NCBI GenBank assembly: GCA_905234645.1
Contig: CAJOIS010000010.1
Span: forward strand, 62,001 to 126,000
Source of the DNA: an uncultured Bacteroidales bacterium
GTDB taxonomy: Bacteria > Bacteroidota > Bacteroidia > Bacteroidales > F082
DNA: 64,000 nt
Direction: 5' to 3'
In this document: one piece after another, positions 15,349 to 60,059 of the stretch
Numbering within the stretch: the stretch's first letter is position 1
How the letters are laid out: every line of letters starts with the position of its first letter
Made by a program: the position numbers and the translations under genes
Notes under the pieces: generated by a model
Seen by the model: only the letters and a program-made list of their open reading frames with translations
Databases searched by the model: none
What the model was told of the DNA's origin: nothing

Positions 15349-16725
15349 TTAAAGCAGTTCGATTCTCGGAATCACCAAATCTCCCTCATCCCGCACGTAA
15401 TCCTTCTGATAGAACATGCAGTAATAGACTGGCAGATATGTAATGCCGCTTTTCACCGAGACTTCCCGTTCGTTGCCCAACACCACGGCCTTTTGGATGC
15501 GGTAGTCGGGCGTTTCCAACAAATTGTCAAGTGCGCTGTGGACGGTGTAGTCCTTGCCCGACTTCACTTCGATGGGTAATACGGTCAGGTGCTCGTAGTA
15601 GTCAATCAGATAGTCCACCTCGCCCTTCTGCTTGTTGTCGTAATAATGCAAAGTGAAACCGTGGGCGTGAAGTTCCTGAGCCACCACCGTCTCATACACC
15701 GAACCAAGGTTGATGCTTCTGTCGTCTTGCAGCACGGCGTTGATGTTGAGACCATACAGGAGGTTGGTCAGCAGGCCAACGTCGTTCATATAAAGCTTGA
15801 GCAGGTTCTTGCTCTCTGACTCCGCCAAAGGGAACCTGGGGTTGCTGACGGCTTGCACACCGAGGGCTATACCCGAATTGGTCAGGTACTCAAACTCGTT
15901 GGCATAGTCGCTGAACTGCTTGTGGCTGGCGGTTTCCTCGATGCGCTTCACGACAATCCGCTTCTTCTTGTTTTCCATGATGGATGGAATCATGTCGTAA
16001 ATCTTCCTGATCAGCAGCTTCTTTTCCGCATCGTATTGCGAAGCATCAATTCTATAAAGCTCATGGATGTCGCGATGCACCTTCCTGACACGAGCCATAT
16101 TCCTGTTTTCCAGAAACTTGTTGATGGCATCAGGCATGCCACCCACGAGAAGATAAATCTTGAACTGCTGCATCATGTAGTTGTGCAATGATTCGTTGAG
16201 CGACTCCCCGGCAAGGAACTTTTCCCTCATGCCGTCGATGGTTTCTTGTCCGCAGCCCATGGCCAGCAAAAACTCCTCGAAGTCGAGGGGATACATCTCT
16301 TCGATTTCGACACTCCCAATGGGCACTGATGCAGTCTCCGACAAGGCCACACCCAACTGCGAGCCACTGGCCACATAGGTGTACCGTGCTTCTTGGTTCA
16401 GGAACTTCAGCATTGTCATCAAATGGGGATAGCTCTGGATCTCGTCCAAAAAGACCAAGGTGTTTTCCTTGGTGCCAAGACGATTTCCTGCAATGGCACC
16501 CAATTGCATGTAAAAGTCGCTGGTGCTTTTCACATTGGCAAAAACACCCAAATTTTCCTTGTCCTCCTTAAGGTTGATTTCAATGTAGTTCTTGAACATC
16601 CTTTTGCCGACATATCGGATGAGATACGACTTGCCAATCTGCCGGGCACCGTTTACCAAAAGAATCTTGTTTGATTCCTCTTGGAAGAACTTTTCAATGC
16701 GCTTTTCGAACTTCCTGTACAGCAT
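15349..16725 (-). CDS. AAA ATPase with C-terminal DUF4143 domain
   Basis: A 458-residue protein of the AAA_14/DUF4143 family. The N-terminal ATPase has Walker A GARQIGKS (26-33) and Walker B TLVFLDE (89-95), followed by a sensor-like YVASGSQLG. The C-terminal part (about 215-440) is DUF4143 and carries a nuclease-like signature of PD-(D/E)xK type: GEVDYLI (E369, D371) and LPIEVKSGK (E386, K388). Family members are abundant, often variable in gut bacteria, and of unproven function; a DNA-directed or defence role is an inference. The gene is a single-gene unit with its own -7 box and a four-copy, 32-bp-period palindrome array directly upstream, unlike any other gene here. Confidence 0.88.
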   Translation of the reverse strand: MLYRKFEKRIEKFFQEESNKILLVNGARQIGKSYLIRYVGKRMFKNYIEINLKEDKENLGVFANVKSTSDFYMQLGAIAGNRLGTKENTLVFLDEIQSYPHLMTMLKFLNQEARYTYVASGSQLGVALSETASVPIGSVEIEEMYPLDFEEFLLAMGCGQETIDGMREKFLAGESLNESLHNYMMQQFKIYLLVGGMPDAINKFLENRNMARVRKVHRDIHELYRIDASQYDAEKKLLIRKIYDMIPSIMENKKKRIVVKRIEETASHKQFSDYANEFEYLTNSGIALGVQAVSNPRFPLAESESKNLLKLYMNDVGLLTNLLYGLNINAVLQDDRSINLGSVYETVVAQELHAHGFTLHYYDNKQKGEVDYLIDYYEHLTVLPIEVKSGKDYTVHSALDNLLETPDYRIQKAVVLGNEREVSVKSGITYLPVYYCMFYQKDYVRDEGDLVIPRIELL

Positions 16726-16743: not shown

Positions 16744-16751
16744 CAAAAATA
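16744..16751 (-). promoter_or_regulatory. -7 box of the DUF4143 ATPase gene
   Basis: TATTTTTG on the minus strand fits TAnnTTTG, 18 nt before the ATG at 16725. A TTG (complement of 16772-16774) 20 nt further upstream fits the -33 element and touches the first unit of the repeat array. Confidence 0.65.
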
Positions 16752-16775: not shown

Positions 16776-16888
16776 AAAAAGGGACTTTTTCCATAAAATT
16801 TTTTCCAAAAAAGGGACTTTTTCCGAAAAATTTGACATAAAAAAGGGACTTTTTCCGAAAATTTCAAGCCGAAAAAGGGACTTTTTCC
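16776..16888. repeat. Four-copy 17-bp palindrome array, exact 32-bp period
   Basis: AAAAAGGGACTTTTTCC occurs at 16776-16792, 16808-16824, 16840-16856 and 16872-16888. Start-to-start distance is 32 bp each time, about three helical turns. Each unit contains the inverted repeat AAAAAG-GGA-CTTTTT. The 15-bp spacers are partly alike (GAAAAATTT or GAAAATTT) and partly different. The array begins next to the -33 position of the DUF4143 ATPase promoter and ends 14 bp before the stop of the upstream gene. Confidence 0.9.
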
Positions 16889-51795: not shown

Positions 51796-51830
51796 AAATG
51801 CCCGACGGGAAATCCCATCGGGCATTTTGT
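51796..51830 (+). terminator. Rho-independent terminator of iorAB
   Basis: Stem AAATGCCCGA / TCGGGCATTT, followed by TTGT, 22 nt after the iorB stop. Confidence 0.75.
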
Positions 51831-51834
51831 TGTA

Positions 51835-51855
51835 GAGACGCATTGAATGCGTCTC
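51835..51855. repeat. GAGACGCA hairpin
   Basis: GAGACGCATT / AATGCGTCTC inverted repeat after iorB. A second, very similar hairpin follows at 51865-51889, and relatives are at 32842 and 58907. Confidence 0.7.
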
Positions 51856-51864
51856 GTTTTGGTA

Positions 51865-51889
51865 TAGAGACGCAAGCATTGCGTCTCTA
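51865..51889. repeat. GAGACGCA hairpin, second tandem copy
   Basis: TAGAGACGCAAG / CATTGCGTCTCTA near-perfect inverted repeat, adjacent to the copy at 51835, just before the stop of convergent cstA. Confidence 0.7.
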
Positions 51890-58906: not shown

Positions 58907-58934
58907 AGAGACGCAAGTTTTTGCGTCTCTTTTT
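58907..58934 (+). terminator. GAGACGCA hairpin terminator
   Basis: AGAGACGCAA / TTGCGTCTCT stem followed by T5, 24 nt after the receptor stop. Same family as the hairpins near 32842, 51835 and 51865. Confidence 0.8.
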
Positions 58935-58945
58935 GTTTGCGGTGG

Positions 58946-59003
58946 GAAATTTCACCACAAAAATGGCCGAATTTCGCCACAAATGGGGGAATTTCGCCAC
59001 AAA
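58946..59003. repeat. Direct repeats of GAATTTCGCCACAAA upstream of fabH
   Basis: Three imperfect copies: 58946-58961 (GAAATTTCACCACAAA), 58969-58983 and 58989-59003 (both GAATTTCGCCACAAA). Spacing is about 22 and 20 bp, about two helical turns. They lie 45-110 bp upstream of the fabH -7 box. Confidence 0.65.
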
Positions 59004-59048
59004 AGCCCGTTTTTGGACACATTTTTTCCACGGCATGGATTGGTGGAG

Positions 59049-59105: not shown

Positions 59106-60059
59106 ATGAAAGTTATTGGAACAGGAAGCGCGTTGCCGTCCCTCACCGTCACCAACGATGACTTGGCTACATTCTTGGACACCAACGATGCTTGGATTAC
59201 GACCAGAACGGGTATACAGGCCCGCCACCTATTATCATCCGAAGATTTGTATGACTTGGCTGTGGATGCCGCCAGCAAGGCCATCAAGGCCGCAGGCTTG
59301 CGTCCTGACCAAATAGACTTTCTCTTGGTCTCGAACGTGGCCAACCGCCATATCACCCCGGGACTGAGTTGCATCGTGCAGAAGCGCATCGGCCTCAATT
59401 GCGCCGGCCTTGACATCAACGTGGCATGTGCAGGCTTCGTCAACGCACTGATGCTCGCCGACAGTATGATGAAAGCCGGTCACGCCAAGAACATTTTGAT
59501 ACTGTGTGCCGAAGAGCCTACCAAATACTGCAACTGGCATGAACGCGACTGTAGTGTTCTGTTTGGCGACGGGGCGGGTGCCGTGGTACTCACCGAGGGC
59601 AATGCCTTTAAGGATGTGCAGCTCACCATGATCAGCGACCGCGACGTGCTATATTATGAAAGAGGTATGGAGACTACCCCTTTCGAGCAGCATTATGTGA
59701 AGGGCCAGCCATTGGTGATGAAAGGCAAGGAACTGTTCCGCACCGCCGTCACCGAGTCGGCCAAGGATATCACAACCATTTTGAACCGTGCCCACCTGAC
59801 GCACAATGACATCAACTGGTTCATGCTGCATCAGGCCAACAAGCGCATCATCGAGGGCATCCGCAACATCGTAGGCGGTCCCGATGAAAAGTATCCTACC
59901 GTCATCGAGAAATACGGTAACACCTCTTCAGCCAGCATCCCGATCATGTTGGATGAGATGATGAGAGACAATAAGATCCATCAGGGCGACAAGATTGTCA
60001 TGAGTGCCTTTGGCGCCGGTTTCGTGTCGGCCGCCTGCTGGTGGGAGTGGGAGTTTTAA
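59106..60059 (+). CDS. fabH: Beta-ketoacyl-ACP synthase III
   Basis: Starts fatty-acid chains by condensing acetyl-CoA (or a branched acyl-CoA) with malonyl-ACP. The 317-residue protein has the catalytic triad C108 (NVACAGFVNAL), H243 (FMLHQANKRI) and N273 (YGNTSSASIP), as well as GDGAGAVVL. It is the first gene of a fab cluster: fabH - fabF - fabZ - acpP - fabG. A -7 box and an array of direct repeats lie upstream. The start ATG at 59106 is the natural one (MKVIGTGSALP). Confidence 0.95.
   Translation: MKVIGTGSALPSLTVTNDDLATFLDTNDAWITTRTGIQARHLLSSEDLYDLAVDAASKAIKAAGLRPDQIDFLLVSNVANRHITPGLSCIVQKRIGLNCAGLDINVACAGFVNALMLADSMMKAGHAKNILILCAEEPTKYCNWHERDCSVLFGDGAGAVVLTEGNAFKDVQLTMISDRDVLYYERGMETTPFEQHYVKGQPLVMKGKELFRTAVTESAKDITTILNRAHLTHNDINWFMLHQANKRIIEGIRNIVGGPDEKYPTVIEKYGNTSSASIPIMLDEMMRDNKIHQGDKIVMSAFGAGFVSAACWWEWEF

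Follow-up and report, generated by a model that had tools for sequence, protein, structure and literature searches.

What reads a row of identical short repeats that stands directly in front of the gene of a predicted ATPase-nuclease? This is the question raised by a 64-kb stretch of DNA from an uncultured Bacteroidales bacterium (the window, in what follows), in which the 17-mer AAAAAGGGACTTTTTCC is found in four exact copies, spaced 32/32/32 bp, beside a gene of the DUF4143 family (Table 1). With up to three mismatches allowed, the window contained four matches, all of them the array copies, and 100 dinucleotide shuffles of the window gave at the same stringency a mean of 0.21 matches and a maximum of 2. 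The 16-base core of the repeat, with up to one mismatch, was confined to the array within the 2.59 Mb of the assembly, which is about 84% complete. The four-copy array at 32 bp reported in a preliminary description of this DNA is therefore real.

The array and the gene beside it

Each copy is an imperfect palindrome (AAAAAG-GGA-CTTTTT). The palindromes of the preliminary description are thus present in the window, if imperfect, but palindromy is not general among DUF4143 arrays: the printed arrays of 22–23 bp were mostly non-palindromic. Imperfect palindromes would suit small hairpins in the 3' untranslated region of the upstream gene, which had been put forward as an alternative, or some other RNA element. 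We consider this vanishingly improbable, given the folding z-score of the array (-0.99, with no Rfam match), the scarcity of palindromes in the 22–23-bp arrays and the fact that in most contexts the arrays follow the ATPase gene and not the upstream gene. A CRISPR array was also rejected, since the gaps between the 17-mers are 15 bp and CRISPR spacers are usually about 26–72 nt long.

The gene-proximal copy lies just upstream of the box TATTTTTG, and the DUF4143 gene reads away from the array. TAnnTTTG is a -7 box of the Bacteroidales, and the promoter box that had been claimed beside the array is indeed there. A scan for sigma-70-type promoters, with a model that does not cover those of Bacteroidales, gave none at the array.

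Table 1. Coordinates of the array, the promoter box and the DUF4143 gene in the 64-kb window.
Feature	Position	Strand	Remarks
Array copy 1, outermost, left edge of the array-plus-gene unit	16872..16888	+	Exact 17-mer
Array copy 2	16840..16856	+	Exact 17-mer, 32 bp from its neighbours
Array copy 3	16808..16824	+	Exact 17-mer
Array copy 4, gene-proximal, beside the promoter	16776..16792	+	Exact 17-mer
TATTTTTG, TAnnTTTG (-7-type) promoter box of the DUF4143 gene	16744..16751	-	Read from the sequence
DUF4143 ATPase-nuclease gene, 458 aa	15349..16725	-	PF13173 and PF13635 over cut-off
Codon of Lys365, aligned with the putative specificity residue 343 of P23	15631..15633	-	Alignment; the covariation itself is found in the P23 clade only
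Predicted nuclease motif E369-x-D371 ... E386-x-K388	15562..15621	-	Conservation in P33 proteins

The encoded protein matches the PADLOC model PDLC04792 of PDC-S01 (E 1.8e-182). According to Pfam, an AlphaFold model and Foldseek, it consists of an AAA_14/STAND-like ATPase, a winged helix and a PD-(D/E)XK-like C-terminal domain, the winged helix and the nuclease fold being named from the secondary structure of the model plus the sequence motif. The models of the window protein (pLDDT 83) and of a member of the clade with 23-bp arrays (P23 from here on; pLDDT 92) both have an ATPase, a lid, a winged helix and a nuclease-like C-terminal domain, i.e., the predicted ATPase-lid-winged-helix fold is that of STAND / Orc1-Cdc6-like AAA+ ATPases. 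The solved folds nearest to the P23 model were the archaeal STAND ATPases 2qen and 2fna, followed by NLR/CED-4 proteins; Orc1/Cdc6 on origin DNA ranked third in Foldseek with both models, and the maltose-system structure 8bob was among the structure matches. The putative catalytic signature of PD-(D/E)XK nucleases (ExD...ExK) can be recognised in the sequences of the family. Among 20 proteins of the 33-bp class (P33, which includes the window gene), E369, D371 and K388 were invariant and E386 was conserved in at least 90%, and in a set of 18 P33 proteins all four were invariant. The equivalent P23 residues, E347, D349, E363 and K365, were invariant in sets of 13 and 77 proteins.

The window gene belongs to the same protein family as PDC-S01, a candidate single-gene phage defence of PADLOC (AAA_14 plus DUF4143). 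PMC12988326 presents PDC-S01 as a defence candidate by genomic embedding, as the fourth most common defence across prokaryotes and as one of the predicted defence genes found most often in bacteria and archaea; according to PMC13356809, no other individual locus is as frequent in rumen genomes. The same domain order is found in arCOG03166, listed in PMC4158269 as “AAA+ superfamily ATPase fused to HTH and RecB nuclease domains” with the comment “likely involved in defense (or some plasmid gene)”. We infer that it is the same family; the passages on it report no such repeats. In the accessible portions of the PDC-S01/DUF4143 literature, with bioRxiv outside the search and subscription journals thinly covered, we found neither promoter arrays nor address reading, and no mechanism for PDC-S01 is described in the literature searched.

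Arrays at other DUF4143 genes

The genome of the window has eight DUF4143 matches, and six of them carry their own array of at least three upstream copies, each different in sequence. A 17-base word of a second array matched its three array copies plus two chance places (two mismatches) in this genome. In two more genomes of the genus the figures were 29 of 43 usable genes (G132) and 22 of 39 (G067), so that over the three genomes 57 of 90 usable DUF4143 genes have at least three upstream copies at quantised spacing. These counts exclude one wrongly taken ORF of G132 (L211, RarA-like by eye, on a tree branch of 4.9), before whose removal they were 30/44 for G132 and 58/91 for the three genomes; the ORF is still within the 128-region lag set, the 128-protein tree and the 91-gene comparison used below. 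The 50 loci listed for G132 are 48 distinct places, with four rows too short and two without an ORF; two of the 50 matches were left out of the set of loci.

Shuffled upstream regions reached three copies in 0/80 cases for the window's own genome, 2/440 for G132 and 0/390 for G067 (2/910 in total). As a further control, arrays were found at 2 of 352 other genes from 20 control stretches and the window, a set that includes at least one weak, below-cut-off DUF4143 match (G132:C8:23696, in stretch L179). General tandem-repeat noise was rejected as well, with six arrays of at least three copies across these 20 stretches and the window, one of them being the window's own. Another ATPase family, PF09820, also fused to a PD-(D/E)XK domain, had arrays at none of its 22 usable members over the cut-off.

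Arrays are unevenly distributed within the family. Other loci of the genus, mostly best Pfam matches, had at least three copies in 9 of 37 cases, and the DUF4143 loci with the best Pfam scores in 1 of 26, a set that samples subfamilies with two copies or none. Several subfamilies near the Pfam consensus have fewer than three copies; many members below this number still have two, at 22, 32 or 33 bp. Of 22 genes with 22–23-bp arrays, 19 have a TAnnTTTG box between the array and the gene start, and in these the array ends 0–55 bp before the box; among genes with 32–34-bp arrays, 19 of 45 have such a box, and shuffled 90-nt leaders contained one in 57 of 670 cases. It is practically certain that the arrays are real and linked to DUF4143/PDC-S01 genes.

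Two loci of G132 are worth mentioning separately. At the removed ORF, L211 (G132:C13:54300-58200), a four-copy 32-bp array lies upstream of the RarA-like gene with a DUF4143 fragment nearby, and is possibly an orphan. At L393 (contig C23), four tandem copies with a 15-bp period precede the gene of another type of ATPase, which scores below the cut-off of PF09820.

The period of the arrays is fixed by clade. The lag spectrum of 128 upstream regions had peaks at 22, 23, 32, 33 and 34 bp and at the multiples of these lags and was nearly empty elsewhere, and in the tree of 128 proteins the clade of the window gene had 32–34-bp arrays in 41 of its 46 members, while another clade had 23-bp arrays in 17 of 18. 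The three-turn spacing seen in the window is thus no general rule, other clades having 22–23 bp.

Outside the genus, a scan of genome contigs with the P23 clade gave at least 588 confirmed loci, of which the best 80 were kept, so that this set leans to close relatives. The record titles of these best 80 of 588 include Bacteroidota, Clostridia, Bacilli, Negativicutes, Treponema, Gardnerella, Fibrobacter and Proteobacteria. Among the 79 usable loci of the best 80 of 588, 67 had a match at lag 23 and 65 had 23-bp arrays of at least three copies; the shuffle control applies to the strict statistic (47/79), and support for the looser 65/79 comes from the lag spectrum. Within the best 80 of 588, these arrays were found in four phyla (Bacteroidota, Bacillota, Spirochaetota and Actinomycetota), and the Fibrobacter locus and two proteobacterial loci had fewer than three copies. 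An Oscillospiraceae and a Gardnerella gene with 85% protein identity have the core TCGCCAATCGTCGGAA in common, as expected if array and gene travel together.

Viral contigs had at least three copies at 32–34 bp in 12 of 26 usable loci, one with a 62-bp gap and some of them near-identical. Among ten hand-picked named plasmid or phage records, six had 32–33-bp arrays (Segatella, Prevotella, Collinsella, Agathobacter and Vibrio coralliilyticus plasmids and one phage contig); in the other four, Acinetobacter had two copies, Vescimonas two by eye, and Ruminococcus and Fusobacterium none. A third repeat style was seen upstream of the DUF4143-family gene of the Vibrio coralliilyticus and Acinetobacter towneri plasmids (L400 and L404), with three and two copies, respectively, of palindromic TATGCGCATAAAA-type repeats 32 bp apart.

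Units on plasmid records bring to mind iterons, direct repeats of small size that lie next to a Rep initiator gene and are spaced by about two turns of the helix. The likeness lies in direct repeats beside the gene of their, here putative, binding protein, and together with the Foldseek matches to Orc1/Cdc6 on origin DNA it could mean that the ATPase is the initiator of a small replicon and the array its origin. This is highly improbable, however: the window unit has SecA- and CoaD-like genes as neighbours on a contig of 162 kb, there are up to 50 DUF4143 matches per genome, and, unlike in iteron systems, the protein has a nuclease domain and the periods are two or three turns depending on the clade, with dozens of types per genome. 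An iteron replicon was therefore rejected for the window, where the separate small replicon is missing.

The array sequences differ from gene to gene and are largely private, less so in the 33-bp class. The best array words of protein pairs 50–70% identical matched at 0.68–0.69 vs 0.67 in distant pairs; the match rose to 0.93 at 80–90% protein identity and to 1.0 at 90–100%. None of 91 genes had a relative of at least 80% identity in the same genome, compared to 25 of 91 with one among the other sampled genomes. Identical 14-base array words were found in 0/400 within-genome pairs vs 10/821 between genomes, and at least seven within-genome pairs matched at 13 of 14 bases. Since many 33-bp arrays have a common GAAAA-GTG-like core, privacy is clearest in the 23-bp class.

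Covariation of protein residues and array bases

Repeat tracts were obtained for 87 of 96 P23 loci, and 86 remained after one poly-A tract (L304) was dropped. The consensus of the 87 aligned 23-bp units was TCGCCAAATTACCGAATAAAATT, with information near zero at positions 1 and 10–11. Base 4 of the array goes with residue 343 of the protein (numbering of the L233 protein), located in a hairpin four residues before the nuclease Glu347: Lys or Arg was found with C in 65 of 66 cases and other residues with A or T in 20 of 20. With 85 of 86 correct, this was the best of 424 residues for base 4, the next best reaching 78. Along the tree, residue 343 and base 4 changed nine times each, six of them on the same branches (p 2e-7). 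A second pair was residue 251 and base 14, where Asp or Glu goes with G, with 12 residue and 9 base changes, six on the same branches (p 2e-6). In the model, residue 251 is at the start of the predicted helix 250–262, which we take as the recognition helix of the winged helix. Bases 4 and 14 are ten bp apart, about one turn of DNA.

Both associations were found again in a held-out set. It comprised 78 new loci, 52 with a P23 ORF, of which 45 had an array and 7 did not; two of the 45 were dropped as identical to the training loci, leaving 43, and positions 3, 4 and 14 were masked when setting the register. The residue-343 rule was correct in 37 of 43 (Fisher 1.3e-6), with Lys right in 20/20, Ser in 10/11, Arg in 5/8, Asn in 0/2, Ala in 1/1 and Tyr in 1/1; Arg was mixed, with five C and three not C. 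For Asp or Glu at 251 and G at 14 the table was 8/3 vs 2/30 (p 4e-5). A stricter test on 43 sister pairs gave p 0.004 for residue 343 and 0.02 for residue 251, and in it columns other than these two scored higher for array positions 3–4 and 14. By mutual information the P23 winged helix as a whole was not enriched (10 of the top 40 pairs vs 8.8 expected), and the case for reading in P23 rests on the specific residues. The scan of P33, with 53 sequences and a poor alignment of repeats, gave no outlier at the equivalent Lys365.

From this covariation the encoded protein very probably reads its own array. The proposal that the array is a regulator array and the target of the DUF4143 protein itself is favoured by the paralogues with their own arrays and by the P23 residues and bases, and is left without such a signal in the P33 scan. 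Neither of the two outcomes named beforehand as refuting it was seen: relatives do show the association with DUF4143 genes, the array staying with the gene across surroundings, and their spacing is kept within 32–34 bp. A separate host transcription factor or nucleoid protein would explain why the arrays lie directly upstream of promoters and why many 33-bp arrays have a common core. We find a host factor very unlikely nonetheless, as the repeats differ by gene, the period tracks the clade of the ATPase and the P23 bases covary with residues of the encoded protein; the general nucleoid-like protein suggested earlier as the binder is not supported, precisely because the arrays differ by gene.

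The unit in relatives and its possible function

Two or more copies in a row of the window repeat were found in 17 of 173 genomes of the family, all of them in the genus of the window, and in each of the 17 the copies were at one place. Their spacing was 32–34 bp, or 65 across one degenerate copy, so the exact 32-bp period holds in the window and is slightly relaxed in its relatives. In 12 of the 17 (window included) the array was just upstream of a DUF4143 gene 85–88% identical to that of the window; of the other five, one locus ran off the contig end and four had an array without this gene beside it.

The window-type gene was found in at least four surroundings, including a SecA/thioredoxin-like/CoaD site and an aminotransferase site (SecA, TRX-like, CoaD, aminotransferase, FabH-like and GIY-YIG-like genes were named by eye, AhpC/TSA by Pfam match). 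The DNA common to pairs from different surroundings mostly began at the outer array edge (-163 to -205 in the lineage of the window) and ended near the stop codon, and in 12 printed copies flanks from different surroundings join the unit at the first repeat. The exceptions, with a common 3' flank, were L080/L083 and L067/L077. As L080 and L083 have about 380 nt of 3' flank in common and a different upstream context, the array edge appears as a repeated breakpoint. Array and gene are thus one self-contained unit, staying together when the surroundings change.

At the SecA/thioredoxin-like site, some genomes had 1–4 repeat copies with no intact ATPase of the window type, its place being taken by another ATPase, another gene (e.g., a GIY-YIG-like one) or nothing. 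Seven loci (L082, L085, L084, L075, L079, L070 and L066) have repeat copies at or near this site with the ATPase missing, truncated or replaced. We read such copies as remnants and the site as a hotspot.

Our preferred reading, function included, is that the ATPase-nuclease binds the private array at its promoter and controls its own transcription, to which we give a probability of roughly 60%. The recognition helix of the winged helix would lie near one half of the repeat (base 14 in the 23-bp clade), and the other half (base 4) would be close to the hairpin that adjoins the nuclease active site; with these bases about one turn apart, the protomers would form a row on one face of the DNA. A STAND/Orc-like ATPase assembled in this way on its own promoter array could hold down the level of an ATPase-nuclease that might do harm, until its nucleotide or oligomer state is shifted by a trigger, most likely an invading element, and distinct addresses would limit cross-talk among the dozens of paralogues per genome.

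In a protein that does nothing but regulate itself, the conservation of a nuclease site is unexpected. The array might instead be chiefly a substrate or breakpoint that the PD-(D/E)XK domain nicks or cuts, moving or spreading the unit, with promoter control being secondary. The block from array edge to stop codon, the breakpoint at L080/L083, the conserved active site, the position of residue 343 four residues before the catalytic Glu and the up to 50 matches per genome all speak for it. We still consider this unlikely: a second end with a further copy of the motif was absent from the 64-kb window (up to three mismatches), no within-genome pairs of at least 80% identity exist among the 91 genes, and such block edges are also expected if flanks diverge while functional DNA stays.

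The lack of close relatives within a genome could reflect incompatibility, i.e., the protein would remove or silence other copies with the same address, leaving one unit per type and making addresses diversify. Also in line with self-exclusion are the contrast in identical words within and between genomes and the single place of the window repeat in each of 17 genomes. However, the same pattern is expected from vertical inheritance combined with gene loss, the comparison covers three genomes examined in depth, and near-identical pairs at 13 of 14 bases coexist in one genome, and we consider it quite improbable. An unlikely, though slightly less so, combination would be that of self-addressed genes, the private address serving as operator and identity tag and the nuclease acting on the same address when its location or copy number is wrong (a second copy or an invading element); if true, one of each type per genome and a runaway diversification of addresses would follow.

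The unit of array and ATPase-nuclease gene has partial parallels. The ends of Tn7-type elements carry arrays of ~22-bp sites, and TnsA/TnsC are a restriction-type nuclease plus an AAA+ ATPase. The window unit resembles them in its site array and in joining an AAA+ ATPase to a nuclease-type domain, and differs in having one array; a two-ended transposon was rejected, as the motif is on one side only within the 64-kb window (up to three mismatches). The STAND-ATPase transcription activators MalT, whose promoter repeats are the MalT boxes, and IniR also have an archaeal-ATPase-like module acting at promoters, but they regulate other operons and, to our knowledge, have neither a nuclease domain nor a private address each. 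For IniR, PMC5760070 describes an AAA+ domain resembling SSO1545 and a binding peak upstream of iniBAC. We know of no gene family in which each gene has a helically phased array of its own at the promoter, read by the ATPase-nuclease that the gene encodes.

The array found beside many PDC-S01 genes names the likely DNA target of the protein in question, provides a partial residue-to-base code in one clade and a sequence signature for annotation, and puts regulation, nuclease action and self-exclusion within reach of a few experiments. Even if only autoregulation were true, the family would still be a rich and unexploited source of proteins that read DNA and differ in their targets.

Other repeats were seen in the window. 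A short AATTTCGCCACAAAAATGGCCG-like array of about 2.7 copies, 20–22 bp apart (58948–59004), lies upstream of a FabH-like gene (59106–60059) and may have been orphaned by the loss of an ATPase unit. At 51825–51887 the palindromic element TTTTGGTATAGAGACGCAAGCAATGCGTCTCG is present as two tandem 32-bp copies; this element is REP-like and unrelated to the DUF4143 array, and a similar inverted repeat, GAGACGCAAG...TTGCGTCTC, is located at about 58908–58929.
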